DNA from: Thermococcus celericrescens
Lineage (GTDB): Archaea > Methanobacteriota_B > Thermococci > Thermococcales > Thermococcaceae
NCBI RefSeq assembly: GCF_001484195.1
Contig: NZ_LLYW01000001.1
Coordinates: 1-60,104 of the forward strand
DNA: 60,104 bases
Direction of reading: 5' to 3'
Positions 6,749 to 48,785 of this stretch are shown piece by piece; position 1 is the first letter of the stretch, and each line of letters opens with the position of its first letter. A program made the position numbers and the translations under genes. A model generated the notes under the pieces. It searched no databases and had not been told where the DNA came from. It worked only from the letters and a program-made list of their open reading frames with translations.

Positions 6749-7060
6749 CTAACCCAAAAGGTTTAGCTGGAAATGGCCAGGGTGGTGTAGCCTGGTTAGC
6801 ACAGGGGACTGTGGATCCCCTAGCCCGGGTTCAAATCCCGGCCCTGGCCCCAGAACCACCCTTCTCCCAGAATAAAACGCTTTTAAAACTTCTTCCAGCA
6901 AACGCGACATGTTAATGCCTTCTCTCTTCGCAAACTCCACCAAATCAGCCCGAATTCTCAACGTAACATTCTTCGTAACTGCACGCTTCTGTACACTGCC
7001 CTTGCAAATGCACGTGCAATTGCCTGTGCACGGTCCCATGGCCTGGCACCTCAGAAACAC
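6749..7060 (-). CDS. Integrase N-terminal fragment int(N)
   Basis: The first 69 residues (GTG start 7060, or ATG 7039) are element-specific. From codon 70 the frame enters the tRNA, encodes GPGPGFEPGLGDPQ, and ends at 6749 in chromosomal sequence. The other half at 37502-36465 begins with the same GPGPGFEPGLGDPQ in the same frame, so excision would rebuild a protein of about 414 residues. The fragment has a Cys-rich start (CTGNCTCICKG) and then a segment resembling a ribbon-helix-helix motif (VTLRIRADLVEFAKREG). The split makes integration stable until another integrase source appears. Confidence 0.85.
   Translation of the reverse strand: MFLRCQAMGPCTGNCTCICKGSVQKRAVTKNVTLRIRADLVEFAKREGINMSRLLEEVLKAFYSGRRVVLGPGPGFEPGLGDPQSPVLTRLHHPGHFQLNLLG
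6775..6852 (+). tRNA. tRNA-His (anticodon GTG)
   Basis: A full cloverleaf is present. The extra G-1 at 6775 opposes C73, which is specific for tRNA-His. The acceptor stem GCCAGGG/CCCTGGC, anticodon stem GGGGA/TCCCC with loop CTGTGGA (anticodon 6811-6813), and T loop GTTCAAATC are all intact. CCA is encoded at 6850-6852. The 3' part is also the attachment site of the integrated element and remains functional after integration. Confidence 0.97.
6809..6852 (+). repeat. attL: 44-bp attachment core in tRNA-His
   Basis: The segment from the anticodon loop to the encoded CCA is repeated exactly at 37458-37501. It marks the left end of the element. The minus strand across it is coding for the integrase. 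Confidence 0.93.
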
Positions 7061-19878: not shown

Positions 19879-19902
19879 CGTGTAAACTTTTTGCTTTACA
19901 CG
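19879..19902. repeat. 24-bp dyad D1
   Basis: CGTGTAAA-N8-TTTACACG, perfect arms. It is 70 bp upstream of the HTH-gene promoter. Confidence 0.85.
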
Positions 19903-20106: not shown

Positions 20107-20517
20107 GGGTGATATGGGGATATACCTCACAACCGGTTGGAAACTTTTACGCCTGTTCATTACAATACATAAATAATACACTGCTGTCCGAGTTTGAATA
20201 TATCACCATATCACCAAGCTTCGATTTTTTCGCACTTTTCGGGGTGTGACATCTTATGTATATACACGTACAGGACAAGTCTGGGGATAATCATGCACAA
20301 AAATGGCTATCAATGTAATTACTACGGCAAGTTGATATATCACCATATCACCTTACATACGCAAAGACAAACGTTTACAAAGTTGGTGATATATGAAAAA
20401 GCCCTCTCAGGGCTTAAATTTTTTGAAGTAATTCTTTATACTTGAAAGTTGTTTCATTTCATATCACCATACCACTGTCCATTTTTGTCATGCACAAACA
20501 TGGGGAGTGATATGTAT
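20107..20517. repeat. GTGATAT/ATATCAC iteron-like cluster
   Basis: TATATCACCATATCACC occurs exactly at 20199-20215 and 20336-20352. Related motifs are GGTGATATGGGGATATA at about 20108, GGTGATATATG at 20385, ATATCACCATACCAC at 20461 and AGTGATATG near 20506. A 16-bp sequence, TCATGCACAAAMATGG, is repeated near 20291 and 20489. The mixture of direct and inverted 7-8 bp units spaced through 400 bp resembles iterons. Confidence 0.6.
20399..20426 (+). terminator. Hairpin plus T run
   Basis: AAGCCC-TCTCA-GGGCTT is followed by AAATTTTTT. It is the most regular member of a set of similar GGCTTCTCMGGGCTT-T-run segments at about 20540-20566, 20765-20790 and 22006-22034. Confidence 0.45.
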
Positions 20518-20576
20518 TAAATGTATTCATTTGGCCACGAAAAAGAAGGCTTCTCAGGGCTTCTTTTCAGCCCTCT

Positions 20577-20600
20577 CGTGTAAAGCAATTGATTTACACA
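20577..20600. repeat. 24-bp dyad D2
   Basis: CGTGTAAA-N8-TTTACACA, with one arm mismatch at the outer base. Confidence 0.8.
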
Positions 20601-21394
20601 GAGGCTTTTTGATGGGGATGTCAGGGGACACCCCCCATGGATCAGATATCCACAACCGGATACTCCTGAACACTTACAATGTGTTCTTTCCCAATGCCCA
20701 ATTATGTTCGTTGGATAAGTGGCAACCGTGGATTAAACAGAAGAATTATTGAAACCAGGCATGCAAAAAGACGGTTTCTCCAGGCTTTTTTTCACAGTTT
20801 TCGGGGTTTCATTTGTGGCAACCTTCATGATTATGAGCAGCATTGTTGGCGTACAAAGGATAAAACCCCACCAGAGAATAAGATAAAAGGCTTCCCACAC
20901 TTGGCCAATGCACAGTTCTGTACTCTCATAAAATCTTGAGGTGACATTTCGGAGAGTGATTCCTCAGCTCAAAGCCCTCGGGGCCATCACTGAAGATTGA
21001 CTCAAACAAAAGTTCATACAAAATTGTCATCACCACCCCTGAAACTGCACTTGCCCAGTTGAAGTAACGGCGACCATAATCTCATCACAAAAGTCAATCA
21101 CGTCGAGAGTTCTCTCTTTTGCTTGTCCCTGGTAGTGTACTGGAGAGATAACACCGAGAATTATCGAAAACAGATGAATGAAGAGAAGCACTCTGCAGGC
21201 ATTGGTAAGGTCATGGTTTTCAGAGAATAAGGTTCCAAGACACGTGAAGATAAGAAATCTCCAAAATTTGCTCTTAAAAGTAGGCTGTCAAGAAGCAGTT
21301 TTTATCAATTAAGAGCCAAGTATTTGCGTTTTTACTTTTACACGCTTTTTCGGAGAGATTCGACAAAATCGAATGGTGTCCGTGCTCAAAAGGG

Positions 21395-21409
21395 CGAAAT
21401 GTTTAAATA
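21395..21409 (+). promoter_or_regulatory. BRE/TATA promoter of ncRNA candidate
   Basis: CGAAATGTTTAAATA is a strong archaeal BRE plus TATA box. It predicts transcription from about 21431 with no open frame following. Confidence 0.55.
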
Positions 21410-21430
21410 TTCGTGAGTTTAACATACTCT

Positions 21431-21548
21431 CGGATAACCCGGGCATGATTATCACCGGGGGTTTTCCCTCTGCGACCGGGCCCCCCAACCCCGACGGTCG
21501 CAGGGGAGACGACCCATGCATGTACTGTGCTTTCGTTTTTGTTTTTAC
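21431..21548 (+). ncRNA. Candidate structured non-coding RNA
   Basis: About 115 nt of GC-rich sequence sit in AT-rich surroundings, a classic sign of structured RNA in hyperthermophiles. A small stem GATAA/TTATC (21433-21437 with 21449-21453) is followed by a long one, CCCTCTGCGACC (21466-21477) with GGTCGCAGGGG (21496-21506) and one bulge. The transcript would end in a T-rich stretch at 21531-21547. It has its own promoter and lies upstream of the replication genes, so copy-number control is one possibility. No known RNA family was recognised. Confidence 0.5.
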
Positions 21549-21563
21549 GATTATGATTCCACT

Positions 21564-21587
21564 TGTGCAAAGCATTCACTTTACACG
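21564..21587. repeat. 24-bp dyad D3
   Basis: TGTGCAAA-N8-TTTACACG, a degenerate left arm. It begins 16 bp after the T-rich end of the ncRNA candidate. Confidence 0.7.
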
Positions 21588-21946
21588 GAGAGTTGAGAGA
21601 TACCAGACATTCCAAGGTACACAAATGGACTCTCATTATTTATACGCCAGAAGCTTCGGCCATATACTACCAAAGGAGAACTTCCTCTCCCATCCAGGCC
21701 CGCTGGAAAAGGACGAACTTTTTAAAAAAAGCCGTTTTGAGAGGATTTTCCACTCTTTGACAAGCTGGTGAGGGGTTTTGTGGTTTTTTCATGCTTGAGC
21801 AGGTGGCTGGTGTTGGCAGGTTTTTTACGAGACTACGAGTTCTCACGGCCCAGATGAGACTTTTCAATTTTCACCGTGTTTTTTCGCCGAAAACGGGCTT
21901 TTCCGGGCTTTTTTCACCTTTGCCTTCGAGATGAATGTACAAAGTT

Positions 21947-22139
21947 GCGATTTCGTGATTTGGAAAATCGGGTTTAAACGTAAGAATTAATGAAAATGGG
22001 TGGGTGAAAAGGAGCGTTCTCCGGGCTTCTTTTTATCTGTGATTTTCCAAAATGAAAAATCGAGGGGGTGTTTTTGGGTTCACGATTTCGTGATTTGGAA
22101 AATCGTGAGTGCTCTCGATTTCGCGTTACGGAAAATCGG
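21947..22139. repeat. CGATTTCGTGATTTGGAAAATCG dyad family
   Basis: Copies are at 21947-21970, 22082-22106 (CACGATTT and AAATCGTG arms, the most perfect) and 22113-22139. A partial inverted copy (GATTTTCC...AAAATCGAG) is near 22041-22062. The family is distinct from the 24-bp dyads and confined to about 200 bp. Confidence 0.6.
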
Positions 22140-22228
22140 ACTCATGGCACATAACGGGAGCATTTTTTACTCATGATCTGTGCTGGTAAGAGGCGTAAGA
22201 GGCTGTTGAAAGTCTTTGTTGCGGAGTT

Positions 22229-22252
22229 CGTGTCAATGAAAACGTTGACACG
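22229..22252. repeat. 24-bp dyad D4
   Basis: CGTGTCAA-N8-TTGACACG. Both arms carry the A-to-C / T-to-G variant, so symmetry is kept. Confidence 0.85.
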
Positions 22253-22270
22253 AAGATACAATTCTGTTGG

Positions 22271-22510
22271 GTAAAATGGTTGTCGAAAGGCCACTTTTTG
22301 GTAGCGCGTGTAAACTGGGAAGTTTACACGGAGCACATCAGGACGTGTGTTAACAAGAACACCCTCTGCTCAAGTACGAGGGTTGTCAAAATTCTTCTGT
22401 TTCACATTTGTGAACAACTTATTCAAGTAAAGCGGTTGTCAAAGGGCGGCTTTTTGAGACCGGTTTTTAACGAGAGGGAGTAAAAGGGTTGTCGAAATTC
22501 TTCTTTTTGA
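22271..22510 (+). repeat. GGTTGTCRAA direct repeats (4 copies)
   Basis: GGTTGTCGAAAGGCCACTTT starts at about 22278. GGTTGTCAAAATTCTTCTG (22381), GGTTGTCAAAGGGCGGCTTT (about 22434) and GGTTGTCGAAATTCTTCTTT (about 22488) follow. They alternate two endings, CTTTTTG after GGC-type and TTCTTC-type cores. Confidence 0.6.
22307..22330. repeat. 24-bp dyad D5
   Basis: CGTGTAAA-N8-TTTACACG, perfect. It lies between two GGTTGTC repeats. Confidence 0.85.
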
Positions 22511-22517
22511 ACGGGTT

Positions 22518-22541
22518 GGTGTAAAGTGATTGCTTTACACG
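22518..22541. repeat. 24-bp dyad D6
   Basis: GGTGTAAA-N8-TTTACACG. It precedes copy A of the 42-bp module. Confidence 0.82.
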
Positions 22542-22558
22542 AAGGCTTACGACCCCGG

Positions 22559-22600
22559 CACCATCGGGGGGTCTCGTCTTTCTGGGTATTGTTCAGAGGG
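22559..22600 (+). repeat. 42-bp module, copy A
   Basis: CACCATCGG, then CTCGTC-TTTCTGGGTATTG and TTCAGAGG. It is flanked by dyads D6 and D7. GACCCC/GGGGTC at its left edge can form a hairpin. Confidence 0.7.
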
Positions 22601-22601
22601 T

Positions 22602-22626
22602 CGTGTAAAGAGCATTGGATTACATG
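22602..22626. repeat. Dyad D7 (9-bp spacer)
   Basis: CGTGTAAA-N9-ATTACATG, with two mismatches in the right arm. It is the only copy with a 9-bp spacer. Confidence 0.6.
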
Positions 22627-22630
22627 TCCT

Positions 22631-22654
22631 CGTGTAAACCTTTTGATTGACACG
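22631..22654. repeat. 24-bp dyad D8
   Basis: CGTGTAAA-N8-TTGACACG. It starts four bases after D7. Confidence 0.82.
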
Positions 22655-22718
22655 AGCTGCTGGGGTGTGAGCACTCCACTACTTATTACCTCGGGTTTTC
22701 CCCACCATATAACGGGCG

Positions 22719-22752
22719 GTTGCTGGTTGCCAAGGTTGCAAAGGTTGCCAGC
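22719..22752 (+). repeat. 9-bp tandem array, left (GTTGC orientation)
   Basis: GTTGC recurs at 22719, 22726, 22735 and 22744 with 7-, 9- and 9-bp steps. The units read GTTGCCAAG and GTTGCAAAG. Confidence 0.65.
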
Positions 22753-22866
22753 ACTTTTCCAAGAGTGGGGGCATGAGTCAGTAATGGGAATATGGTGAAG
22801 GTCCGAGGAATGGTTATTTCGGCGGATAAGGGATCTCCGAGGGGATTATACGGGAGTTGTTTTTGG

Positions 22867-22928
22867 TGGGACAACTTTGGCAACTGCGACAACCTCAGCA
22901 ACCGTGGCAACTCTGGCAACCGTGCAAC
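22867..22928 (-). repeat. 9-bp tandem array, right (GCAAC orientation)
   Basis: There are seven consecutive units: TGGGACAAC, TTTGGCAAC, TGCGACAAC, CTCAGCAAC, CGTGGCAAC, TCTGGCAAC and CGTGCAAC. Consensus is NNNGGCAAC. It is the inverted counterpart of 22719-22752 across about 115 bp. Confidence 0.75.
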
Positions 22929-22989
22929 TCATGAGCTCAAAAACTCAAAGAGATCATGGATTTTTCAATTCTTATGAGTAACAAGCCCG

Positions 22990-23235
22990 CTTTTATTCTT
23001 AATTCCGCACCATGACTGGGGTAAGAGACACTTCGGGATTTCCAAAAAAGCGATAACGATTACATATATGGTGAGAGGGATTGAGAGTGTGCTTGTCTCG
23101 GATTTTATCTCCACCCCAGCCCTCAACCCCCAGCTCGGCAGGATTGTTTTTATTCCCACACCATGAGAGGAGTTGAGTACTCTTCCGGAGTTCCCCCGAG
23201 AAGTAAACAACGGTTTCTTATATGATGTGCTCCCC
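22990..23235 (+). repeat. Diverged 85-bp duplication
   Basis: Copy 1 runs from about 22991 to 23072 and copy 2 from about 23148 to 23227. They share TTTTATTC, CACCATGA, a GG-GT stretch, TTC-GGA-TTCC and a TATATG-TG end, with scattered differences between. They may be duplicated promoter regions. Confidence 0.4.
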
Positions 23236-23248
23236 CTGAGCGAGATCT

Positions 23249-23271
23249 CGTGTAAAGGGGAGGTTTACACA
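23249..23271. repeat. Dyad D9 (7-bp spacer)
   Basis: CGTGTAAA-N7-TTTACACA. It is one base shorter than the consensus. Confidence 0.7.
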
Positions 23272-23342
23272 CAAAGTGCCGTTTTCCAACAACCTTTTCC
23301 TCCCAGGGTAATGCTTCGGAAGCATTTCTCGCCCTCGTTCGC

Positions 23343-23366
23343 CGTGTCAACCAGTCAGTTTACACG
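23343..23366. repeat. 24-bp dyad D10
   Basis: CGTGTCAA-N8-TTTACACG, asymmetric variant. It lies about 40 bp upstream of the replication-operon TATA box. Confidence 0.82.
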
Positions 23367-23404
23367 AAGAAATTTACGGATAAATACGATGACACAGAGA
23401 TATG

Positions 23405-23446: not shown

Positions 23447-23809
23447 ATGATGTTGGATGGAATGAATGCTTCAAGTATGGGTGTTCTGGCTCAGGCCAGG
23501 GTGGATGGTAAGGTCTGCAGGGAAAGACGAGGTAGTGCCAATAAAGTGCCATCCTCAATCTCCATCAACTTCTCACGAGAGGTGGAAAGCCTGGTAGGTG
23601 GTCTGATTTCAATGAACATCCTTCCAGTAAGTGCCTCAAGAGCCACCTTCGGCAGAGATGCGGTCGTATTTGCTCTCGGAAGTTATGATGATGCAATCAG
23701 ACTCTACGAGGATGTTGCGGACGGTCGTAGAGCTTACTCAGGCAAAGTGTTGAAGGTGGAGAATCTTGACCCGGTTTACTACAGTAGAACCGGGGGTGAA
23801 GCCAGATGA
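23447..23809 (+). CDS. Small hypothetical protein, first gene of replication operon
   Basis: The protein is 120 residues from ATG 23447 (a second ATG at 23450), with GGTG a few bases upstream. The middle segment SISINFSREVESLVGGLIS and later VVFALGSYDDAIRLYEDVADG look like a small alpha/beta domain. It overlaps the primase/polymerase start by four bases, so the two are translationally coupled. The family is not recognised. A regulator or accessory factor of replication is a guess from position only. Confidence 0.6.
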   Translation: MMLDGMNASSMGVLAQARVDGKVCRERRGSANKVPSSISINFSREVESLVGGLISMNILPVSASRATFGRDAVVFALGSYDDAIRLYEDVADGRRAYSGKVLKVENLDPVYYSRTGGEAR

Positions 23810-26547
23810 GTGAACTCACCCCGGGAAAAGTTCTCGCTGATGTTTACAAAGTTATCCAAGACCACCCGGAGGCTGGCAGGCTCGCGATTGAGCTGAGGTT
23901 CTACCCGGTGATTAAGTCCGAGTGGGTGCTCTTGAACGACATTGAGGACAAGGCTCGGGACATTGATAAGGTTCTGGCCAAGAAGAACATTATTAATGGT
24001 AAGGAAGCGTATGTGTCAATGGCGATCCACGATTTTGGGGCGGTTAAGAAGAAGTTGGAGAAGCTCAGGGAGAAGGCGGAGGGGGAGCGAGCTCGTAGGA
24101 TTGGGCTTGAGAACGTTCAGGGCGAGGCAAAGGGCAAGGTTCACCCGACGGTGAGCAACTACACGCTTGCGTTGGTCGTGGATATAGATATTGAGGAGGT
24201 TCACAAGTCGAGGGTTGTTGAGGACGTTGAGGCGGTGTTTGAGAGGGCGAAGAAGGGTTGGCTTGCTCTCCGGCCCGTGTTTGAGGAGCTTGGAGTGTTG
24301 CCGAGGTATGTGTTCTTCACGGGCGGTGGTCTTCAGATTTGGTTTGTTGCTCCGGAGCTTGAGGATATTGCGGTGATTGACAGGGCGTCGGGTATTGTTC
24401 CAGGCGTGCTGAATGCTTTGCTTCCAGAGGGCTTTGTCGTGGACAATATCTTCGACAGGGCGAGGATTGTCAGGGCTCCGCTGACGGTGAACCACAAGTA
24501 CAAGGCTCCGAACGGGGCGGGGCTTGGTGTTAAGGGCAGGCTCATTGAGTTCAATGACGTGAGAGTGTCCCTTTCAGAGGTCCTTGATAAGCTTGAGGCG
24601 TATGCAAAGGAGAAGGGTATTCAGTTGGGTGGTCAGGAGAGGGCGAGCGGTGTTCGTGTGTTCGGAAAGGTCAGGTATGAGGTTAAGAAGGAGAGGCTGG
24701 AGACGTTGGCCCTGAACCTTGCTGACGAGCTTGCTCCGTGGTTCAAGAAGGTTAAGGAGAGGGGCGGATCTTGGCATCACTTGGTCAATGCCATCGGGGC
24801 GTATATTGTCAGGAACACGAACCTTTCGCTTGAGGACCTTATTGGGAAGGACAACCCGGACGGCACTCACGTGGTTGGGCTTTGGGAGCTGGTGTTTCAG
24901 AGGCTCGTGGAGAAGGGTGCTGAGGACCCGAGTGATTGGTTGAACAGGCGGAATACGATAAAGGATGTTTACGAGAAGCACATTGCGGGCAAGCCGCTCG
25001 GCACGAGGGCTTATCTCAAGAAGTATCTCCCGGTGAGTGATGAGGAAGTTGTTGAGATTTTGATGGCCGCCAGGCGGGCCTTACTACCGTTTTTGAAGGG
25101 GGTTAAGAGGGCTGGTTCCTCGGGGTTTGGTGTTTTCCCGTATAAGGACACGGCCCCGAGGAGTTGGAATGAGGTGGAGGCGGAGCGGAAGAGGGCTACG
25201 GGTCTCTGGTATGTGTGGAGTCTGGCGTTCAGCACGGCGGAATACATTTTCACGGACGAGCTCTCCAAGGCGGGCACGTTTTTCATTTTGGTGAAGGAGG
25301 GCAAGAGTATAAAGAGCGTCTTCAACGAGACGCTCTTCAGGTCGTTCATTGAGGAAGGGCTCGGTTACAAGTATGGGATGCCGGTGAGGAGGGACGAGCT
25401 CTTCGAGAGGCTCGTGGAAGTGTTCAACATTACCGACGAGGAGGTCAGAGGGGTTTACATTGACGCGGCTCTTTCACTCCTCTCTCCAGTAGGCATGAGG
25501 ACGCCGCCGTGCATTGAGGAGTTCATAATGGAGTTCGCGGCGAACGGCAATCTTCCAGAGGATAAGGTTCGCCACCTCGCCCGGTGGATTAAGTTGTATG
25601 CCAAACCGCTCAAGCACTCAACGACTACGACGAAGCTTGTGGGTGCGGGGTATAATGTTGATATGAGGATGGCAGTTTGGGCGAAGCTGGTCGAGTTCTT
25701 TGCAGAGGACGATGAGGTGGCTGGAGAGCTGGTGAGGATTTTCAAGGAGGAGTATAAGGAGGCAGAGCCGCCGTTCACGTGCATTGGAGCAAGGACTTGC
25801 CCGTTCTACCTTAAGGACGATGTGGCAAAGATGTGCCCGTTCATCTTCCCGAAGGAGAAGGAAATTCTCGCGGTGAGCCTCATTGACGTGCAGAGGCACG
25901 AGTCCGACGGTATTGTCATTCTCGTCGGCGGGGCCAGAGAGGTCAGGACTTTCATTAAGAAGGGCAAGGTCGAGTGGGTAAAAAGGACGAAAAAGACGGA
26001 GAAGTATCCAATTGCGGAGTGGTTCATTGACGTGTTCGCTACGGAGTATCTCGGCGTCCCCCCGGACAACCTCGACTTTGACTTGAAGGATGTTACGGGT
26101 ATTTTGAAGAGTAGGGAAAGGGTGGTTCCGAGCCAGCTCAACGAGGTCGAGGACTGGTATGAGAAGTTCGTCGAGTGGTTGAAGAGGGAGAACGAGGTAA
26201 GGGGCGTGCTCCCCTACAAGAAGGCGGATGTCCACCATTTATTCATAAAGGATAATATGATTGGCATCCCGCCAGCACTCGCGGAAGAGTTCTACCGCTA
26301 CGAGGCGAACATTAAACCCTCGGAGTTCAGGGAGATGCTTGAGGTAAAGCTGAGCATCCACTACAAGAAGAAGGCCGTAAAGCTGAGTGTGGGTGAGAAG
26401 AAGGACGTAAGGCGGTGTTATCTCGTAAGCTTGGAGTGGTTCAGGAAGGTGGTGGGAGAGCCGAATGTGAAGGATGTGGTCATGGCAGGTGATATTGCCC
26501 TCAGCGGGCTGGTCTATTATGAGAGCGGCGAGGAGGTGGTTGAATGA
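23806..26547 (+). CDS. Plasmid primase/polymerase, PriS-PriL fusion (PolpTN2-like)
   Basis: The protein is 913 residues. The N-terminal part shows archaeo-eukaryotic primase motifs: the metal-binding pair in LVVDIDIEE near residues 124-132, a glycine-rich TGGGLQIWF near 172, and RARIVRAPLTVNHKY near 220-234. In most of this superfamily the glycine motif carries a His (S-x-H); here it reads Gln. The C-terminal part resembles PriL with four Cys (TPPCIEEF; FTCIGARTCPFYL; KMCPF) suited to an Fe-S cluster. The size and two-part layout match the replication protein of Thermococcus plasmid pTN2, which primes and extends DNA. It overlaps its neighbours by four bases on each side. Confidence 0.82.
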   Translation: MSELTPGKVLADVYKVIQDHPEAGRLAIELRFYPVIKSEWVLLNDIEDKARDIDKVLAKKNIINGKEAYVSMAIHDFGAVKKKLEKLREKAEGERARRIGLENVQGEAKGKVHPTVSNYTLALVVDIDIEEVHKSRVVEDVEAVFERAKKGWLALRPVFEELGVLPRYVFFTGGGLQIWFVAPELEDIAVIDRASGIVPGVLNALLPEGFVVDNIFDRARIVRAPLTVNHKYKAPNGAGLGVKGRLIEFNDVRVSLSEVLDKLEAYAKEKGIQLGGQERASGVRVFGKVRYEVKKERLETLALNLADELAPWFKKVKERGGSWHHLVNAIGAYIVRNTNLSLEDLIGKDNPDGTHVVGLWELVFQRLVEKGAEDPSDWLNRRNTIKDVYEKHIAGKPLGTRAYLKKYLPVSDEEVVEILMAARRALLPFLKGVKRAGSSGFGVFPYKDTAPRSWNEVEAERKRATGLWYVWSLAFSTAEYIFTDELSKAGTFFILVKEGKSIKSVFNETLFRSFIEEGLGYKYGMPVRRDELFERLVEVFNITDEEVRGVYIDAALSLLSPVGMRTPPCIEEFIMEFAANGNLPEDKVRHLARWIKLYAKPLKHSTTTTKLVGAGYNVDMRMAVWAKLVEFFAEDDEVAGELVRIFKEEYKEAEPPFTCIGARTCPFYLKDDVAKMCPFIFPKEKEILAVSLIDVQRHESDGIVILVGGAREVRTFIKKGKVEWVKRTKKTEKYPIAEWFIDVFATEYLGVPPDNLDFDLKDVTGILKSRERVVPSQLNEVEDWYEKFVEWLKRENEVRGVLPYKKADVHHLFIKDNMIGIPPALAEEFYRYEANIKPSEFREMLEVKLSIHYKKKAVKLSVGEKKDVRRCYLVSLEWFRKVVGEPNVKDVVMAGDIALSGLVYYESGEEVVE

Positions 26548-28259
26548 CTGCCTCGGCTCTCACTTCTACTCCGTATGTTGTCAAGATTTATGGCCCGCCA
26601 GGGACTGGCAAGACGAGAGCTCTTAAGAACCTTGTTGAGTGGATGACAGGAATTAATCCAGAGGTTAAGGAGGAACTGATGGAGAAGGGCTTTCCAGAGG
26701 AGTTCTTGGAAAGTGTGTTCGGGAAGTATGATGTTTCAGAGATTGCGTTCGTTACGTTCCAGAATTCAGCCCTTAAGGAGTTTGTCGAAGAGAGAATCAA
26801 TATGAGCCTTGAGGAAGACAGGAGGGCCGGAAAGCCGTTGAGGTATTTCAGGACGGTGCACGGGCTTTGCCAGACGCTCCTTACAGATTTCGAGGTGAGC
26901 GATTGGAAGGTGATTTCGAGGCGCATGGGTGGACTCGGCCCGGAGAGGTGGTTCCAGATTTTCGCGGCCCAGCAGAGGAAGAAGGACCCGAGCTTCAGGT
27001 TCGACCCGGACGCGATGGGGGCGGCGAACCCGTTTGAGAAGGCGAATTATCTCTGGCAGGTGAAGAGTAGGGTAATAAACAGAGAGTACCACAAGCTCGA
27101 GGGAGAGAAGATTCATCTGAGGATTTTGGACGAGCTTCCACCGAGTTTGCACGACCATTATTTCGACTGGTTGATGTTCAAGAAGGAGAAGAGGATAAAG
27201 GACTTCGATGATATGCTGATGGACGCTTATGACGCCCTCAAGGCGGGAGAGATTTATCTCCCGACCAAAGTCCTCATCGTGGACGAGTTTCAGGATTTAA
27301 GCCCGCTCCAGTTCGAGATTTTCAAGATGTTGGCAAGGGATAAGGAGTTGGTGGTCATTGCAGGCGATGATTGGCAGACCATTTTCACATGGATGGGTGC
27401 AAGCCCAGAGTTCCTCATTAATTACCCAGCGGATCTGGAGCTTATGTTAAAGCGGACGTTCAGGTTGCCCGAGAGGGTGCTCAAAAAGGCTCTCAGTTAT
27501 GCAAAGGAGAAGCTCAGAAACGGTGTTTACAAGGAGATGGTGAGCACAGGAAAGAGGGGTGCAGTAGGCGTCCTTTATCGGGTTTCGACGAAGAAAGAGG
27601 CCGACTTGGACTTGTTGGCAGGGGTAATTATTGGCGAGTTGAAGAGAGGTCACTCGGTCTTTGTTCTCACGAGGACGAATGCTCAGGCGTTGCACTTTTT
27701 CGGTGAACTTTACAAGAGGGGGTTCAAGCCGAAGACCCTTAAGAGGTCTTCCCGATGGAAGAAAAGAGTCTCAAAGGTTGGGGATTTCTTTGACGTGATC
27801 CATTCAATTATTGAGGTAGAAAGCGGGTCCCCAACGAGGGAGGATTTCAAGAGAGTGGCGTGGGTTACAGGTCTTATCTCAGAAGAGGAGTTCGACGAAG
27901 ACTTGCCGCTCGTAGAGTATATCAGACCTAATTGGAAGGGGAATATTCAGTTGGATAAAGTTCAGGAGATTTGGGGCAGATTGGCGAAGCGGTTCCTTGA
28001 GAAGATCATCAATGACGGCATAAAGCCGATGGAGGGCATTCCAGAGGATTACGAGCTTTACGTGGACACAATTCACGCCAGTAAGGGTCGTGAAGCGGAT
28101 GTAGTATTCCTCATTAATGAGATGCCCACCCGGAACTGGAGAAAGTATCTCCGGACGCCAGAGGAGGTTGAAGCGGAAGCTCGCGTATGGTTCGTGGGGA
28201 TGACGAGAGCCCGGAAGGGGTTACTTATTATCAACACGGACAAGCCGTTCACTCTTTGA
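26544..28259 (+). CDS. SF1 (UvrD/Rep-like) DNA helicase
   Basis: The 571-residue helicase has Walker A YGPPGTGKT at about residues 14-22, Walker B IVDEFQDLSP near 246, motif III AGDDWQTIF near 274, motif IV RTFRLPERVL near 308, and TIHASKGREADVVF plus VGMTRARKGL (motifs V-VI) near the C-terminus. It overlaps the primase/polymerase by four bases, and the pair forms the pTN2-type replication module. It is expected to unwind plasmid DNA during replication. It lacks the large insertions of chromosomal UvrD. Confidence 0.92.
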   Translation: MTASALTSTPYVVKIYGPPGTGKTRALKNLVEWMTGINPEVKEELMEKGFPEEFLESVFGKYDVSEIAFVTFQNSALKEFVEERINMSLEEDRRAGKPLRYFRTVHGLCQTLLTDFEVSDWKVISRRMGGLGPERWFQIFAAQQRKKDPSFRFDPDAMGAANPFEKANYLWQVKSRVINREYHKLEGEKIHLRILDELPPSLHDHYFDWLMFKKEKRIKDFDDMLMDAYDALKAGEIYLPTKVLIVDEFQDLSPLQFEIFKMLARDKELVVIAGDDWQTIFTWMGASPEFLINYPADLELMLKRTFRLPERVLKKALSYAKEKLRNGVYKEMVSTGKRGAVGVLYRVSTKKEADLDLLAGVIIGELKRGHSVFVLTRTNAQALHFFGELYKRGFKPKTLKRSSRWKKRVSKVGDFFDVIHSIIEVESGSPTREDFKRVAWVTGLISEEEFDEDLPLVEYIRPNWKGNIQLDKVQEIWGRLAKRFLEKIINDGIKPMEGIPEDYELYVDTIHASKGREADVVFLINEMPTRNWRKYLRTPEEVEAEARVWFVGMTRARKGLLIINTDKPFTL

Positions 28260-33247: not shown

Positions 33248-34429
33248 ATGAGAGAGGCGGTAAGCAGTTTGAATGCAAATCTTGATCAGATCAAAATTGT
33301 CAGGAGGACACGCGGAGGCACCTACGGGATTCCAATCAGCGAAGTCGAGATGTACATCTCCGAACTGAAGTCCAAGGACGTCAGCAAAAAGCACAAACAG
33401 AAGCAGATCAAATGGATACAGGAATTCCTTCGAATACTACCCACTACCGGTGGGGACTCAGAGCCACTGTACGTGGAGAACCCAGAGCCAACGTACGTGG
33501 TCAGTGCCAGAATTATCGAGGATTACTTGGAGCACCTGGACTCACTCAAGGGGAGGTATGGCCAGAACCTCGGATACAAGGCCAAAATGGACAGAATCTC
33601 AACGGTCAGAAGATTCTTAAGAGAGCTGGGAGTTGACGACCGGGAAATCATTGGCAGACTCAAAATGCTGGAAGATGAACTACGACGAAAATGGAAGACT
33701 CACATCGCAATGAACCCCAAAACCGTCACAAAAGAAGACGTTGACAGCCTCTTCAATGCGCTCGAAGCCGCATATGAAGATGAAGAGATTGGGGAAGAAC
33801 AGTACTGCAAGGCCCTTGCATTTTTGCTACTGCTGGCAACAACGGGGCGCAGAAAGGAGGAAATCGCACGGGCTCACATTGAATGGTTCGATTTCGAGGC
33901 CAACATAATGAAGCTCCCACACAGCGTTACCAAGGTCGGACGACAGCTGAAGGAGACTGAAGGCTTTGAGGTGATTCCACTCCACCCTGAAACAGCAGCC
34001 TGCCTTAAGATGTACGCCAGGAAGTTTGGGCACTTAATTAAAGCAAACGACGGCTACCTCTTTGCAGTACCTACAAGGAAAGCAGAGAATCCAACGTTTT
34101 GGGATGCGATGATTAAGAAGCATCCGCGTCTCAGAGTCCAGCTCCGCTACAGCCCGGGAACTCTCACGCCAAAGTTGCTGAGAAAGTTCTTCATCCAGCA
34201 CTGGTACGAAAAGAACGGCAATGAGCTTATCCTCAAGAAGATCGTTGGTCACTCCCCCACAGTGGTTCACGATCTTCATTATGCCAGAGGGATTCGTCCA
34301 GAGAAGGTCATCGAGGAGTATCAGAAGGTTCTTGGGAAGACGAGCTTCCTCACGAAGAAGCAACGGGCAATGGTCGCCAGGTATCTTCCAAGGAAGCGTG
34401 GAAAGAAACGTCGCAAAAGGAGGAAATGA
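33248..34429 (+). CDS. Second tyrosine recombinase of the element
   Basis: The 393-residue protein has an N-terminal SAM-like domain (about residues 25-130). The catalytic domain shows the first Arg in TGRRKEEIARAH, then LLRKFFIQHW with Arg, GHSPTVVHDLHY with His and the likely Tyr nucleophile, and a basic tail ending in a KKRRKRR-type stretch. The His of the usual H-x-x-R is replaced by Leu (LLRK). A TATA-like TTATATTTAA lies upstream at about 33203-33212. It is unrelated in sequence to the split integrase and may resolve multimers or invert DNA; the target is unknown. Confidence 0.85.
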   Translation: MREAVSSLNANLDQIKIVRRTRGGTYGIPISEVEMYISELKSKDVSKKHKQKQIKWIQEFLRILPTTGGDSEPLYVENPEPTYVVSARIIEDYLEHLDSLKGRYGQNLGYKAKMDRISTVRRFLRELGVDDREIIGRLKMLEDELRRKWKTHIAMNPKTVTKEDVDSLFNALEAAYEDEEIGEEQYCKALAFLLLLATTGRRKEEIARAHIEWFDFEANIMKLPHSVTKVGRQLKETEGFEVIPLHPETAACLKMYARKFGHLIKANDGYLFAVPTRKAENPTFWDAMIKKHPRLRVQLRYSPGTLTPKLLRKFFIQHWYEKNGNELILKKIVGHSPTVVHDLHYARGIRPEKVIEEYQKVLGKTSFLTKKQRAMVARYLPRKRGKKRRKRRK

Positions 34430-36464: not shown

Positions 36465-37502
36465 CTACAAAAGCTTCACATTGAATTTTAATTTCCCAAA
36501 GACCTTGTCATAAACCCTTTGAAGGCTCTCTGGCGTGTGGTGGGAGTAGTGAAGAGCATTTATGTCTCCTCGTATGGAGTGGCCCATGAGGAGTTTTTTG
36601 ACCGTTGCGTTGCCGTTTCGTCTGTCCCACTCCTGTGAGAAGAACTTTCTCATGTGTTTCGGCCGGATTGGCTGATTTGCAAGCTCCTGTTTTCGGATAA
36701 ATGGCTTTTCAAGGCTGAAGTAAGATATGACCGGCTCATTGGGGTTTGGCTCGTATTTTTTAACGTATTTTCTCAGGAGTGCTTGAACTTCGGGAGTGAT
36801 GAAGGTCATCCGCGGTTGGCCGGTCTTGGCGACTTCCGGTGGAACACTTATTGTGCGCTTGGTAATGTCAATGTAGGAGAGGGGCAAGCTCGTAAGTTCG
36901 TACACTCTTAAACCGCCTGTTGCCATTATCAAAAGTCCGAGAATCATTTTGTTGGCGATCAAGTCTGAGAGCTCTGGATCTCTCGCCAGCTGAAGTTTCT
37001 GGATTGTTTTCGTCAAATTTTGAACGTCTCTTAATGTAATGACTGTCATGTCAACGCCGATGTATCGGGGAGTCTTGAGATGGTTCTCGAGAGGAATGCC
37101 TGCAATCCTGAAGAGCTTTTTGAGGTACGTCACATTTTTTCGGTAGAATGATGGCGAATATTGTTTTTGAATCTTCTGAAGGTGCGAAATTAAGTCTTCG
37201 ACGGTGAAAGACCAGTATTCGCCGTGATTTGTTGTATTGTCAAGGAATCTTTGTATCGTTCTTGTTACAAAGTTCAGATGGTGCTGAGCGACGTTGTTTG
37301 CTTTTAATTCCAGTAACAAAAGGTCCACGTGCTTTTTTGTGATGATGTATCTGTCAGACTCGTTGGAATTTCCTTGTATTGTTGCAGGAAGGGAATTCTT
37401 TGTTTTTTGGTTTTGTGGCTTTTGGAACGCCTGTTGCCCGAATAAAGCATTCTGAGGCTGTGGATCCCCTAGCCCGGGTTCAAATCCCGGCCCTGGCCCC
37501 AT
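36465..37502 (-). CDS. Integrase C-terminal fragment int(C), tyrosine recombinase
   Basis: The fragment has 345 residues, starting with ATG at 37502 formed by chance at the att junction. It carries the same GPGPGFEPGLGDPQ as int(N), then an SAM-like core-binding domain (about 55-150) and the catalytic domain: TGGLRVYELTSL (Arg), KHMRKFF (His/Arg), MGHSIRGD (His) and LHYSHHTPE (Tyr). Joined to int(N) it gives an SSV-type integrase of about 414 residues. The catalytic residues are all here, so this fragment might retain activity. Confidence 0.92.
   Translation of the reverse strand: MGPGPGFEPGLGDPQPQNALFGQQAFQKPQNQKTKNSLPATIQGNSNESDRYIITKKHVDLLLLELKANNVAQHHLNFVTRTIQRFLDNTTNHGEYWSFTVEDLISHLQKIQKQYSPSFYRKNVTYLKKLFRIAGIPLENHLKTPRYIGVDMTVITLRDVQNLTKTIQKLQLARDPELSDLIANKMILGLLIMATGGLRVYELTSLPLSYIDITKRTISVPPEVAKTGQPRMTFITPEVQALLRKYVKKYEPNPNEPVISYFSLEKPFIRKQELANQPIRPKHMRKFFSQEWDRRNGNATVKKLLMGHSIRGDINALHYSHHTPESLQRVYDKVFGKLKFNVKLL
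37458..37501 (+). repeat. attR: 44-bp tRNA-His 3' remnant
   Basis: An exact copy of 6809-6852, with no 5' half, so it is not a functional tRNA. It marks the right end of the element. Confidence 0.93.
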
Positions 37503-38518: not shown

Positions 38519-41500
38519 TTACCCCACCGAGAGCACCTTTCGAATCTTGTTCTTAATGTTGATGCTGACCTTTCCGGTAATCTCGACTTCCTTCCCGTCT
38601 TCGAGGACCGCATAAACCCTGGCATCCCTCTCAAAAGGCCTGAAAACCTTCAATATGACCGGCTTTTTCTTTCCGAGGTTTGCGACGATATAAATCCAGT
38701 ACTTATCAACGTTTTTGGAGTCCGTCGCGAATTCATACTCCGCGGGCGTGACCTCTGCAGTAAGCAGAAGTGGCTTATGGCCCTTAACCTCAATGTACCT
38801 CTCTCCATTCGGCTCAACGACCTTGATGTCATAATGTTCCTTCAATGAGACGTCTTTGACTTCCCAGCCTCCACCGGGGCCATACTTCTTTTCCAACCTT
38901 TTCTTCTCAAGCTCCATGACGATCTCCATCGCCTTCCGTTCGCTCTTCAGGATATCCTCCAGGGGCACGAAGTTCCTCTCGGTTATGCGCTTGTATTCAT
39001 CGGTGGGCGGTTCCACGTCTTTCTCCGAGAGCCCATAAACGTCGAGAATCCCGCTGGGAACATACTTTAGTATGTTGAACCTCTCCTCGCTGATGCCCTC
39101 GATCCTCAATACTTCATTTGTCTCAATTTTCGTGTTCTTGAAGAGGCGCCCCTTCTTCAGCTTACCCCTTGAAAATGCCCGCTCGTAATTTCTGTACTTT
39201 GTCCTGGGCCTGTAAAACCCGTCCCTTGCGAGCGTCCTGAGCTGGGAAGATATTAAATGCTCCTCCATGGTGGGTTCGGGCCGGCCAATAACAACGAACT
39301 CCTGCGAGAGTATCTCAATAAGGTGCTTCAACAGGTCAACGCCATAAAGGAACTCAAGCTTCCCACCGTTCCTCATTACGAGGACAGGATAACGATGGAA
39401 CTCCCGGTTATTTTTCTCGTCAACTAACCTTACAAAATAGAGGTATTCAACGCCATCCCTGCCCTTAACACCAATCTTCATTGGCCTTAGGCTTGAGGGG
39501 CCTTCCTTAACGACACCATGAAGAATCGGGGAAATTTCGGGAATGTTCCTCTTCCCGAGAACCTCAGTGAGATAAGCCCTCAGCACTTCGAAGACCGCCT
39601 CCATGTCAAAGTCTCTCGGAGTGAGTATATGCTCAAGCTCCTCCTGAACCTGCTTTGCTGTGTCAGAGGGAATCATCTTTTCGATGTTCTGTCGGAGACT
39701 CTTCAGGGTATGTATTATGGCCCCCGCGTAACCTGTAAGTTCCCTCCTTATTGACGCAATCACAAGGTCGTACTCTGAAGGCTGTTCTCCCTTGGCACCC
39801 TCTTCGGAGGCTTCTTCCTTCCACAGTGCCTCGAAATCCCCAGAGAACATTTGTTTTCCGAAAACAGGTTTGCCAAGGCGCGGACCACTCCCAATGGCTT
39901 CAGTTATGTTCATAATCTTTTGGTAAAGGTTCTCCAGAACGTAGAGGTCTGTCTCTGCCGCCAGGAACAGGGTGTAAGCGGTTGTCTCCCTTGGCTGACT
40001 GAGCCTCCATATCCTCCCGACCCTCTGTTCGAGCTTTATCGGACTCCAGGGAGCCTCGTAATTTATGACAACACTGGCAATCTGAAGGTTCAAACCCTCG
40101 GAGGCAACGTCGGTTGAGATCAAAAGCTTTCCGTACCTCTCAAACCAGGCCATCTGTTCTTCCACTTCCCTGCTCGACATTCCCCCGTAAAGGAGGGAAA
40201 TCTCACGGCCTTCCAACCTAACGCCGTGCTCGTCGACCAGAATCTTGGGAAGCTTTCGTTTTATGTACTCCAGCGTGTCCTTGAACTCCGTGAAGATTAT
40301 CACCTTCTCCCCTTGCTTTATATGGTACGCGGCAATCTCCGCCACCATTTGGAGCTTACTGTCCCTCTCTTTGATTTGCTTTGCTAATTCAAGAAGTCCC
40401 CTGAATGACTCCACCTGTTTCCTGTCGAGCAGGGGGGAATACTCCTCGATTATCTTCTCAACAGCATCGTCAAGCTCGTTGAAGTCCTCCAGCTCAATCT
40501 CATCATAACCGAGGCCAAAGAGACTTTTAATGTATTTGCTAACCTTTTCTGCCTTCCCGCTCCCTTCAGAGTTTGTACTCTCAGCAATCTTACTGATTGT
40601 CTTTACCGCCGCCTCATAACTCGATGAAGCCCTCTTCTTGACAAGAACCGCGAGAAGGGCCTCCGGAGAGTTCTCCCCGGCACCTTTTATCATCTCGAAG
40701 AGTGCTTTGTCGAGCTTATCGAAAAAGGCCCTTTCAGCGTCGCTTATCTCAACGACAACTGCCCCAAAATAACACTTCTTGAAGACCTCCCTGCCCTCAA
40801 GTTCGTTGACGACCTTTTTGGTCCTTCTCATGACGAGCGTATCCCGAGTTTTGCTGTAAAAACCGGGCTTGTCAAGTTTCTGATACTGGTCGGTAAGGGT
40901 CGGGTCAAGGAGGGCAATCCTTGCGAGATAATCCTTGGAATTGCCCCGGTGGGGAGTCGCGGAAAGGAAAATCAGGTTGAGATCCCCTCCGCCCTTCTCA
41001 ACAAGGGCCTTAAGAAACTCATACCTCTGGGTACCGAGGGTAACGTTGTGAACCTCATCAACGATTATCAAATCCCACTTAATATCGAGGAACCTCTCGC
41101 GATGGGGAGACCTCTTGGCGAGATCAATTGAGACGACCGTGTATCCGTACGTGTTCCTCAGCTTGCTCTCGACCTCACGGCCGTTCTCGATTACGGTTGG
41201 AAAGCTCCCAACCCTTCTTATCTCCTGCTTCCACTGCTCACGGAGAATCTTTGGCACGAGGACAAGGATTCTCTTAGCCTCGCCCCTCAGCTGAAGATAC
41301 CTCGCAATGGCCAGCGCCTGGACGGTCTTCCCCAGTCCAATTTCGTCGGCGATGAGTATCCTCACCGGCTGGGAAATCATGGCATGATAAAGGGGCTGGA
41401 ACTGATGCCTGAACGGGGTTATTGGCCTTCTTGCCGGAGCGGTTAGAGCTGTGTAAAATAGTGCAGGGCTGTGGAGGAGAACGTCCCCCAGAATGGCCCC

Positions 41501-41524
41501 CTTAATGCCCTCGCTCAAATCCAC
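38519..41524 (-). CDS. SNF2-family helicase with C-terminal DUF3883
   Basis: This 1001-residue motor starts at GTG 41524 (GGAGGTG ahead). SF2 motifs are IADEIGLGKTVQAL (about residues 59-72), LIIVDEVHNV (about 150), FLSATPHRG (about 180), and STDVASEGLNLQ plus QRVGRIWRL (about 470-510). The final 100 residues contain IKVVEPNGERYIEVKG, the DUF3883 nuclease-like core found in defence proteins. It overlaps the preceding gene by ten bases and closes a four-gene operon of helicase, ATPase and methylase, the Hma-type set. Similar motors occur in DISARM (DrmD). Confidence 0.88.
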   Translation of the reverse strand: MDLSEGIKGAILGDVLLHSPALFYTALTAPARRPITPFRHQFQPLYHAMISQPVRILIADEIGLGKTVQALAIARYLQLRGEAKRILVLVPKILREQWKQEIRRVGSFPTVIENGREVESKLRNTYGYTVVSIDLAKRSPHRERFLDIKWDLIIVDEVHNVTLGTQRYEFLKALVEKGGGDLNLIFLSATPHRGNSKDYLARIALLDPTLTDQYQKLDKPGFYSKTRDTLVMRRTKKVVNELEGREVFKKCYFGAVVVEISDAERAFFDKLDKALFEMIKGAGENSPEALLAVLVKKRASSSYEAAVKTISKIAESTNSEGSGKAEKVSKYIKSLFGLGYDEIELEDFNELDDAVEKIIEEYSPLLDRKQVESFRGLLELAKQIKERDSKLQMVAEIAAYHIKQGEKVIIFTEFKDTLEYIKRKLPKILVDEHGVRLEGREISLLYGGMSSREVEEQMAWFERYGKLLISTDVASEGLNLQIASVVINYEAPWSPIKLEQRVGRIWRLSQPRETTAYTLFLAAETDLYVLENLYQKIMNITEAIGSGPRLGKPVFGKQMFSGDFEALWKEEASEEGAKGEQPSEYDLVIASIRRELTGYAGAIIHTLKSLRQNIEKMIPSDTAKQVQEELEHILTPRDFDMEAVFEVLRAYLTEVLGKRNIPEISPILHGVVKEGPSSLRPMKIGVKGRDGVEYLYFVRLVDEKNNREFHRYPVLVMRNGGKLEFLYGVDLLKHLIEILSQEFVVIGRPEPTMEEHLISSQLRTLARDGFYRPRTKYRNYERAFSRGKLKKGRLFKNTKIETNEVLRIEGISEERFNILKYVPSGILDVYGLSEKDVEPPTDEYKRITERNFVPLEDILKSERKAMEIVMELEKKRLEKKYGPGGGWEVKDVSLKEHYDIKVVEPNGERYIEVKGHKPLLLTAEVTPAEYEFATDSKNVDKYWIYIVANLGKKKPVILKVFRPFERDARVYAVLEDGKEVEITGKVSINIKNKIRKVLSVG

Positions 41525-42045
41525 TCCACCTCCAGGAAGCGTCTTGCGAGATAATCAAGCTTCCTCCGATTCTTGTACTTCCAATAAGTGTTTTTGAATC
41601 TCGAAGCCCAGAAGCGAAGCTGTATCGGTTCCATTGAGAGCACGTATTCCTCAAGCTGGCCCCACTCCGCAGGCGTCTTAAGAACCGCCATGACGACGCC
41701 ATAAACCATCAGGCGAAGGTAAGCATAATCATCGCTGGTTCTCAGGATTATCCGCTTGTTTCCGCTGTACTCCAGCCGTTCCCTCTTTGACGGTGGCAGG
41801 TTCAGCCACTTGAGGAGACTCTCGTTCGCCTCGACCTTAAACCCCAGTTTCTTGGCAAAATTGAGAAATTCGGGGAGGTACACCCTCGCCCTCGCCTCGA
41901 CTTTTCCCGGGACTTTTTTCTGCTCCCCCGCACCCATAACGTTGAACACCGGTACGAATTCGGCGAGCTTCTGCTCCCGCGTTACTGGGAGGAATGCCTT
42001 CTTGATGTACTTTAGGTTCACCTGGTACTCGACGCTGCCCTCCAT
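41515..42045 (-). CDS. Small protein of the Hma-like operon
   Basis: The protein is 176 residues from ATG 42045, seven bases from GGAGG (ATG 42051 would be only one base away). It is basic, with beta-rich NLKYIKKAFLPVTREQK at the start and a C-terminal helical part, FWASRFKNTYWKYKNRRKLDYLARRF. It overlaps both neighbours, so it is likely made in step with them and part of their complex. I do not recognise the family; DUF3780, which accompanies related operons, is a possibility to test. Confidence 0.65.
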   Translation of the reverse strand: MEGSVEYQVNLKYIKKAFLPVTREQKLAEFVPVFNVMGAGEQKKVPGKVEARARVYLPEFLNFAKKLGFKVEANESLLKWLNLPPSKRERLEYSGNKRIILRTSDDYAYLRLMVYGVVMAVLKTPAEWGQLEEYVLSMEPIQLRFWASRFKNTYWKYKNRRKLDYLARRFLEVEWI

Positions 42046-45000
42046 CAGCATTCCTCCTTCCTGAGCCTGAACCGAACCTTTCCATTGAGAGGCCTGAGCT
42101 TTTCGAAGAGGAGGTCATCAATTACCACTTCTTCCGGGAGACTGAGGTCCACGTCAAGATTGGCCCTGCCCTCGAGGAGCTCCTCCATCTCCCTCACGAG
42201 ATATGCCAGCACTTCCCTATCCACACCCTCAAAGCGGCCCTCCCACAGCGGCTTGTCAATCCTCAGGCTCCCGCTTACGATGCCCTTAACGTTCTCGGGG
42301 ATGAGGCCAAGCGTCTCAACGTCCTCAATGTCGAGGATTGAAGTCAGGAACATGCCCTTGTGCTCTCCTTTAAGGGTATCCGTTTCAACGATTTCCGTGC
42401 CGAGGTCAGGGATTAAACTCACGTCCCTGTAACGCGTTCTCTTGGGGCTCCGCCCTTCAATCGTTGCGATTGTCCTCGTCTCTGGCATGATTATTGTCCA
42501 TGTAACCCCAACCGGTTTTCCGTCTTCAAGCCTAACCTCGTAAGAGTCGAGCTCCCCATGATCCACCGACAGCTCCACCGTGAAAGAGTCTCTTCCGAGG
42601 GGCACAACCCTTACCTCAATCTGCACCGGCTTCCCAGGCTTCTCCTTCACTTGGGGCACTTCAATTTCAAGCTCGAATTCACCCTCGGTTATCGGGGTCT
42701 CTTCTCTCATCTCAACAATGTGGCCCCAGAGAACCATGTCGAGGTACTCGTTCTTTACCCTGCAGTCCTCCCCTCCAGTCACGAGGCTCTTCAACGGAAT
42801 TCCAATCTCCGATGATGGTGAATAAACCTCGTACCACGTCTTCACTCTGAAGTCCTTGTCTCCCTTGGGCACGATTAAATCCTTCTCCTTCTTCAGCAGA
42901 TTGCAGACCTGCCTGTGGAGGGCAGTCCCCCTCGGCAGGATTAGGTCCCTATGCTTAACGGCACTGGGCGGGTTACCCTCCTCCTCGGAGCTTGGAACCT
43001 CCTTGTGAACCTTCTTGAAGAACACTTCCCCCTCGCGCTCAAGGCCAATCCTCAAGTCGAGAACGGCGTTCTTTATGGCCTCGCTAATGTGGCCGTCCTC
43101 AATCATCGGCAGGCGTGTGTTCGTTCTTATTATGGCGATGAGCTCCGAGACCCGGTACCCTTCGGGCCTCAGAACTTCCACACCGATATCCTTGAGAGTC
43201 TCCACGAGCCAGTCAAAGTCGAACTCGTCCACGATTTTGCCCTTGCTGAGCAGGGCCGAGTAAACGTTCTCAACGACCGACTTTGAGCTGGACGGGGCCT
43301 TGGTGACGCGAACCTCGTCTTCCTCTGGATAAGCCACCTGCCTGAAGGAGTTCACAATCTGGGTCTCAAGGTCTTCGAGGGCCTTGCCCCTAATGTCCTT
43401 CACCATGTTCATCTGTATCTTGACGACTTCCTCACCGAACTGGCCGTATTTGACCTCGATGTCCCTGATGACCTCATCGCACGCCATTATCCTAGCCGTC
43501 GTCTCAAGGAGGGGTTTAAAGCTCCCCTCAACTGGGTAACAGACGACGACCGTGTTCCTGTACGTCCTCGTACCTGTTCCATAGGCGTAAATCAGCTTCC
43601 TCAAAGTTCTCTCATCAACGTCGTCCCTCACGAGCACCTGGAGCTTGTAATCAGGAGTGTCGTGGAATTCCTGCGGGTCCTTCGCCACGATGATGTACTG
43701 CTCCCTAAAGAACGTCACGTGGTCCTCAATCTTTGCCCCCTTCCCCCTCGTTGAGGTGAGGCTCTTTCTCTCCTTGACCATCCTGTTCACGTACTTGACG
43801 AGTTCGTTCCACACCTCGCCGAGCCTTGTTTCAAGGAGCTCCCTGGCCTTGCTGTCCACCATCTGGGCCACGTTGGCGACGCGCCAGAACCAGAGGACTT
43901 TGTCCTTCTTGTTGAGGTATACAAAGCGGACGCTCGCGGTTATCTCCTCAAAGGTGTCTCTAATGTCCGTTGGGAGCCACCCGTTGGCGTCAAACTCGTT
44001 CGGCTCGTAAACACCCCTCGCGATTGAGTCGGCCGTTGGGAAACCCGGCAGGGGAACAGGCGAGTCAAAGGGATACGTCCTTAAGAAGACGTACTTGAGA
44101 ATTATCTCCGCGAGTCCCGGCTTGGTGAAGTCCTTGAACTTCTCCCTCTTAATGTCGGTGTCAACGATGGTGGCGTAATCCATGAAAGCTTCGCTCTTGC
44201 CGAACAGCATGCCCCTCAGCTTCTCGTGTTTGAGGTCAATGTGGTGGGGCATTATCATCGAGGGGGCAAAGCCCGTCTCGGCGTATCTCCTGACCAATTC
44301 CCTAACAACGATCCTCGTGATTCTGAGCATGTCCCTCGTTCTCTGAAGGCCGGTCCTCTCGATTATCGTTCTGAGGACGTCCACGTACTCCGGGTGGAAC
44401 GGGTAACTCCTCCTGAGCTCGTCCTCAAGGTTATGCGCATGGCCGAAGACGTCGGTGTTGCTAAGCTCCGAGCGCATTCTGGTCAGGGTCTTGACCCTCT
44501 CCTCGTCGTCAATCCCTTTAAAGATCCTCTTTTTGAGCACCTCGACAAGCTCGTTGCCCGCTCCAGAAGTCCTCAGCGGGGAGTAAAGCTCGGAGCCACC
44601 GACCCTGTTAACGGCGTCCCTTATGGCCATCACAACTTCCCTGTTGTACTCCTTCTCGACCTCGAACATGCCCTCCTTCTTCTCCATTGGGAGCGTCATG
44701 ACCATCGCGCTTCCGGAGCCGAGCAGGGCCGTGGAAAGCCTGTCAAAGAAGTTGTCCACGTTTTTGGCATAACGCCTGTCGTCCTCGCTTCCAGAGTTGT
44801 AAAGGTTGTCGAAGTAATCCACGATCTCCTCAACGAGGAGGATAACCCTCTCTCCCCTGAAAATCTCCCTCAGGGTGTCAATCTCCGGGACTGTGGCGTT
44901 CTGGTCGTCCCTCTCGACGATGTAATACCTCCCGAGGGCGTGGGCGATGTAACCCCAGACGGTTCTTACCTTATACGGCCCAACCTCAAGGGGCTTGCTC

Positions 45001-48529: not shown

Positions 48530-48634
48530 GTTGGTCACACCCTTGATGTTTAACACGGCCCGCAATAAATACCTTTTGATGACGGGCGATACATGGTGTA
48601 ACGCCCGAAGTCCAGCATAAAATTCATCAGGCGA

Positions 48635-48785
48635 AATGCTTATTAAGGAAAGTGGCAGAGATAACATTGGTAATATTAACAACATTAACAAAACAAACTC
48701 TCTCGCCTGTTCCCCGTTCACGACCCCGGAATGGGGTGTGAAGGGACGGCGGAGCAGGCGGTTTCTGGTGTTTTTAATGTTTTCT
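48635..48785 (+). ncRNA. Candidate GC-rich structured RNA
   Basis: A promoter-like CGAAATGCTTATTAAG (48632-48647) lies about 25 bp before an AT-rich leader. A long imperfect stem follows: CGCCTG (48704-48709) pairs with CAGGCG (48755-48760), and TTCACGACCCC (48717-48726) pairs with GGGGTGTGAA (48733-48742). A T-rich run (48770-48783) follows the stem. The arrangement is like the element's candidate at 21431-21548. A bare terminator hairpin is the alternative. Confidence 0.35.

Follow-up and report, generated by a model that had tools for sequence, protein, structure and literature searches.

The window analysed here, i.e. the whole 60,104-nt stretch of Thermococcus celericrescens DNA (from assembly G000, family Thermococcaceae, 2.34 Mb in 73 contigs), carries an integrated element, in whose predicted origin region lies a locus that is probably a small autonomous transcription unit, specific to this element and giving rise to an untranslated RNA of ~105–115 nt. 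The predicted non-coding transcript extends over 21432–21546 on the plus strand, its start being set by the 23-nt median TATA-to-start distance of T. kodakarensis (PMC4247193) and its end by a T-tract. Transcription of the locus, both termini of the RNA and its stability are inferred; our best guess for the product is a lineage-specific orphan sRNA, either trans-acting or without a selected function. In the proposed mechanism, TBP and TFB would bind the BRE/TATA sequence at 21394–21409, RNA polymerase would initiate near G21432, and the GC-rich hairpin would be transcribed before a stop in the T-tract at 21536–21546. The unit would be an accessory one, resembling a phage ‘moron’, and would sit in a tolerant intergenic site outside the replication machinery.

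The integrated element and its predicted origin region

The 3′ end of tRNA-His is directly repeated in the window (attL and attR, 6809–6852 and 37458–37501; 44 nt, exact), with attR contained in a tyrosine integrase gene (36465–37502), and these repeats evidently bound an integrated pTN2-family element of ~30.7 kb in tRNA-His. Its replication genes show the arrangement that defines the family, i.e. a PolpTN2-type primase followed by a Superfamily 1 helicase, with a large intergenic region on the 5′ side. The primase-polymerase (23806–26547, plus strand) is 52–58% identical over 99–100% of its length to those of pCIR10, pP12-1 and pTN2, and the helicase (26544–28259, plus strand) is of the UvrD/Rep kind (PF00580, E 2.7e-23). 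A search of viral and genome contigs with short peptide patterns confirmed no further relatives of the primase. Among 94 Thermococcaceae genomes, a closely related rep module was found only in G027, where the primase is 86% identical at the amino acid level and the module DNA 93% identical, the flanks of the candidate being conserved as well.

The non-coding 3.1 kb upstream of the rep operon (20300–23400) is the predicted origin region. As in the origins of pTN2-like plasmids, for several of which ori has been predicted at the same location (PMC3543421), a long, repeat-rich intergenic region precedes the primase-helicase operon and holds a GC-skew minimum; the cumulative G-C minimum of the element lies at 21129, within 350 bp of the candidate, the sign change at this point being partly confounded with divergent gene orientation. 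The origins of pTN2, pP12-1 and pCIR10, in contrast, showed neither a comparable RNA candidate nor the palindrome family described below.

Two further gene groups were seen in the window. A second tyrosine recombinase (33248–34429; 393 aa, PF00589) has 70% identical relatives in three other genomes of the family and more distant ones in ten. Adjoining attR, at 38519–48817, are genes for a helicase, a DUF499 ATPase and a DUF1156 methyltransferase, a cluster resembling Hma-type or DISARM-like defence (PADLOC matches to HmaA, HmaC, HmaB and DrmD).

Promoter, hairpin and T-tract of the candidate

The candidate promoter consists of a BRE (GCGAAATG, 21394–21401) and a TATA element (TTTAAATA, 21402–21409) on the plus strand, spaced as expected for a start in an intergenic region. 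The preliminary description had spoken of a textbook BRE/TATA box, and the combined motif GAAANNTTTAWATA is indeed matched perfectly (21396–21409) and only once within 6.9–54 kb (shuffled mean 0.0, 30 shuffles). Genome-wide, the exact motif occurs 18 times and the reversed motif not at all, the other exact copies lying mostly 19–70 nt upstream of gene-like ORFs, among them two archaeal histone genes. These two observations, the excess over the reversed motif and the position just 5′ of genes, support the candidate promoter. With one mismatch, the motif is also present 42–46 nt upstream of tRNA-His and tRNA-Tyr in the window.

Downstream, the GC content per 80 nt reaches 69% (around 21440), compared with 56% for the runner-up and a mean of 44% in the 3.1-kb non-coding region, while the host chromosome within the window has ~59% GC. 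This island contains a hairpin at 21467–21506 (plus strand), seen in both RNA and DNA folds, in which the 11 pairs described earlier form the outer stem (21467–21477 with 21496–21506) and are joined by three inner pairs. The T-rich end reported with it is the strongest T-tract of the region, TTTTTGTTTTT at 21536–21546 (plus strand), which is likely the terminator; no other 11-mer in 20300–23400, whichever strand is read, contains 10 or more T. Three regional extremes, i.e. promoter, GC island and T-tract, thus follow each other on one strand in the expected order within 150 bp. The sequence gives good support to the proposal of a short RNA with its own promoter in the replication region.

The feature was chosen by eye and post hoc, and its fold is a weaker point. 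Compared with shuffled sequences, the full predicted transcript folds mildly but not significantly better (z -1.7 to -1.8, p ~0.06), with z values equal to those of both tRNAs in the window; a 59-nt core reaches z -4.3, although this core was picked after the fact. Windows on the candidate rank 5th and 6th of 1526 by minimum energy, a ranking of energies and not of z-scores.

Hyperthermophile GC-rich RNAs of the Hgc/SscA type are structured GC-rich islands in lower-GC DNA, and the candidate is an island of this kind, but it differs from them in having no Rfam match and in a host chromosome that has ~59% GC in the window. The preliminary description went further and took GC-rich islands as a reliable sign of structured RNA. 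An island is present here, but the rule is doubtful as such, because just 30% of the T. kodakarensis ncRNAs exceed 50% GC (PMC4247193) and a control island from the origin region of pCIR10 (L017:8440–8560), likewise GC-rich, gives no fold signal (z -0.09) and looks like a decayed coding piece.

The absence of an open frame, also part of that description, does not hold literally. Three ORFs cross the site, i.e. 21373–21771 on the plus strand (132 aa) and 21309–21575 (88 aa) and 21403–21636 (77 aa) on the minus strand, but none is gene-like. Codon scores are negative in all candidate frames (-0.22 to -1.00 versus +0.31 and +0.46 bits/codon for control genes), no frame of the crossing ORFs gave a Pfam, PHROG or plasmid match, and no protein relatives were found except in the G027 flank. 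These open ORFs on both strands would be expected if the locus encoded a small protein, either starting at ATG 21445 (108 aa) or lying on the minus strand; the codon scores and the missing relatives argue against such a gene, as does the breaking of the frame downstream in the G027 sequence, and we regard it as very improbable. An orphan sRNA would have no translated ORF, and the frames here have neither coding signal nor relatives. Rfam gave no gathering-level match for the candidate (best permissive match E 1.2). A C/D or H/ACA guide RNA was rejected, since the plus strand lacks both D box and ACA motif and Rfam gave no match.

Comparison with G027 and alternative readings

In G027, 9 bp stand in place of the 457-bp block (21108–21564) that holds both promoter and hairpin, position 1044803 joining window position 21107 and position 1044813 joining 21565. 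No comparable BRE/TATA was found on either strand of the G027 non-coding region. Since G027 keeps its rep module without the block, the replication module does not require the unit; at the least, the G027 module would have persisted in evolution without the candidate, although this copy may itself be inactive. The difference may reflect either a gain in this element or a loss in G027. Searches of 115 genomes of the phylum, of plasmids and of phages gave no homologue of the candidate, with nothing similar in pTN2, pP12-1 and pCIR10. Among IMG/VR contigs, searched with hairpin patterns only, there were 29 loose-pattern matches, with extended similarity limited to 38 nt in one contig (L033); one 20-nt exact match in a contig of 67% GC was taken as chance.

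These comparisons bear on the suggestion, made at the outset, that the RNA serves the replicon in an antisense or copy-control role. The location within the predicted origin, with the rep genes following 2.3 kb downstream, and the presence of promoter and hairpin speak for such a role, and the candidate resembles plasmid antisense copy-control RNAs such as ColE1 RNAI and R1 CopA, which are short structured RNAs near an origin. Those RNAs, however, have an overlapping target, whereas the candidate has none and is not common to the relative that keeps the rep module. An antisense copy-control RNA would be transcribed opposite its target and conserved with the rep module, and neither is the case here. 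The opposite-strand ORFs at 21431–21546 lack homology and coding signal, nowhere else does the window contain a complement of the hairpin loop, and G027 retains the module without promoter or hairpin. The suggestion thus finds no support, and we consider this role improbable.

The same relative bears on a function of the hairpin as DNA, i.e. as a cruciform or single-strand hairpin for origin firing or priming. Such an element would fit the nearby G-C minimum and the fold of the candidate as single-stranded DNA (z -3.1), but the sign change tracks divergent gene orientation equally well, and G027 has its own minimum (1044949) in the same module with the hairpin absent. An origin role as DNA is possible but not needed to account for the hairpin, and we give it very little weight.

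The main rival, unlikely but to be taken more seriously, is a fossil: a gene now lost would have left behind its 5′ leader and its promoter, which is or once was a real one, with the hairpin formed by chance and the block consisting of decaying DNA. In pCIR10 and pP12-1, a comparably strong BRE/TATA lies 45–60 nt before the regulatory ribbon-helix-helix gene that heads the rep operon, and coding-like tails that have no homologues are present at 20941–20999 (codon score +0.18) and 21099–21227 (+0.04); the pCIR10 GC island, likewise resembling coding scrap and without a fold signal, points in the same direction. On the other hand, no recognisable gene is left in any frame, and T-tract and hairpin are regional extremes in the order of an RNA gene. 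A separate 104-bp block at ~20939–21044, of which G027 lacks 20940–21043, reads VTFRRVIPQLKALGAITED-stop on the plus strand, resembles a winged-helix tail and is a probable gene fossil.

As to a trans-acting function of the putative sRNA, the 3′ stem (21503–21519) is perfectly complementary over 17 nt to a phosphate-permease-like coding region (G000:C53:8768–8784), a match at chance level (E ~0.1). It is a highly speculative idea that a stable sRNA might act in trans on the host phosphate-permease mRNA, by which the integrated plasmid could tune phosphate uptake. A phosphate-permease-like gene (L002:950–2027) changes frame where six G follow one another and is thereby divided in two, due either to a homopolymer assembly error or to a real frameshift.

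Palindromes of the replication module and meaning of the candidate

Around the rep genes, a 24-bp palindrome, CGTGTMAA-N8-TTKACACG, occurs in 14 copies between 19879 and 31721, which start at 19879, 20577, 21564, 22229, 22307, 22518, 22631, 23343, 28309, 28348, 28445, 28473, 28551 and 31698; the copy at 21564–21587, with two mismatches, marks the right edge of the 457-bp block. The rest of the genome contains one additional poor match at up to two mismatches. In G027, nine exact copies and a tenth that has one mismatch lie within the matching module, while in the other 92 genomes of the family a single exact copy was found in one genome only, and pTN2, pP12-1 and pCIR10 have none even at three mismatches.

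Two copies are placed as operators would be, i.e. one ~5 nt before the start of a conserved minus-strand gene (G027 site 1044363; ORF L020:11801–12358) and one (23343–23366) 36 nt upstream of the ORF that opens the rep operon (23402). The latter copy also lies at a rearrangement, as the segment 22631–23366 is inverted relative to G027 and ends in the palindromes 22631–22654 and 23343–23366. Further synteny breaks relative to G027 fall within palindrome copies at 19902, 21565 and 28469, a coincidence somewhat inflated because BLAST extends into shared repeats. The palindromes are likely to be operator or iteron-like sites and may also act as recombination hot spots. The simple version of a pairing with the second tyrosine recombinase as the palindrome-acting enzyme was rejected, because G027 has palindromes without this gene and the three genomes with the 70% identical recombinases have no palindromes.

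Considering the genus, an orphan sRNA would be no exception: 55 new orphan sRNAs have been described in T. kodakarensis, 26% of them conserved (PMC4247193), and poorly conserved sRNAs are thus usual in Thermococcus, which fits our preferred reading of the locus as an orphan sRNA unit. Like those RNAs, the candidate is intergenic, has its own BRE/TATA and no meaningful ORF, and has few or no relatives; unlike them, it is GC-rich, lies on an integrated plasmid and is known from its sequence alone, whereas the T. kodakarensis RNAs were detected by dRNA-seq and are mostly not GC-rich. ncRNA units of this kind are already common in Thermococcus transcriptomes.

For the biology of these plasmids, a strong promoter and a GC island near an archaeal origin do not allow copy control to be inferred when the closest relative lacks both, and the palindrome family, confined to the replication module and found where it is rearranged, offers a lead on the regulation of the module that can be tested more readily. 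If transcribed, the candidate would represent an orphan sRNA with its own promoter, predicted from the sequence of a Thermococcales plasmid. It would also show that accessory RNA units occur on elements of this type in the way that morons occur on phages.
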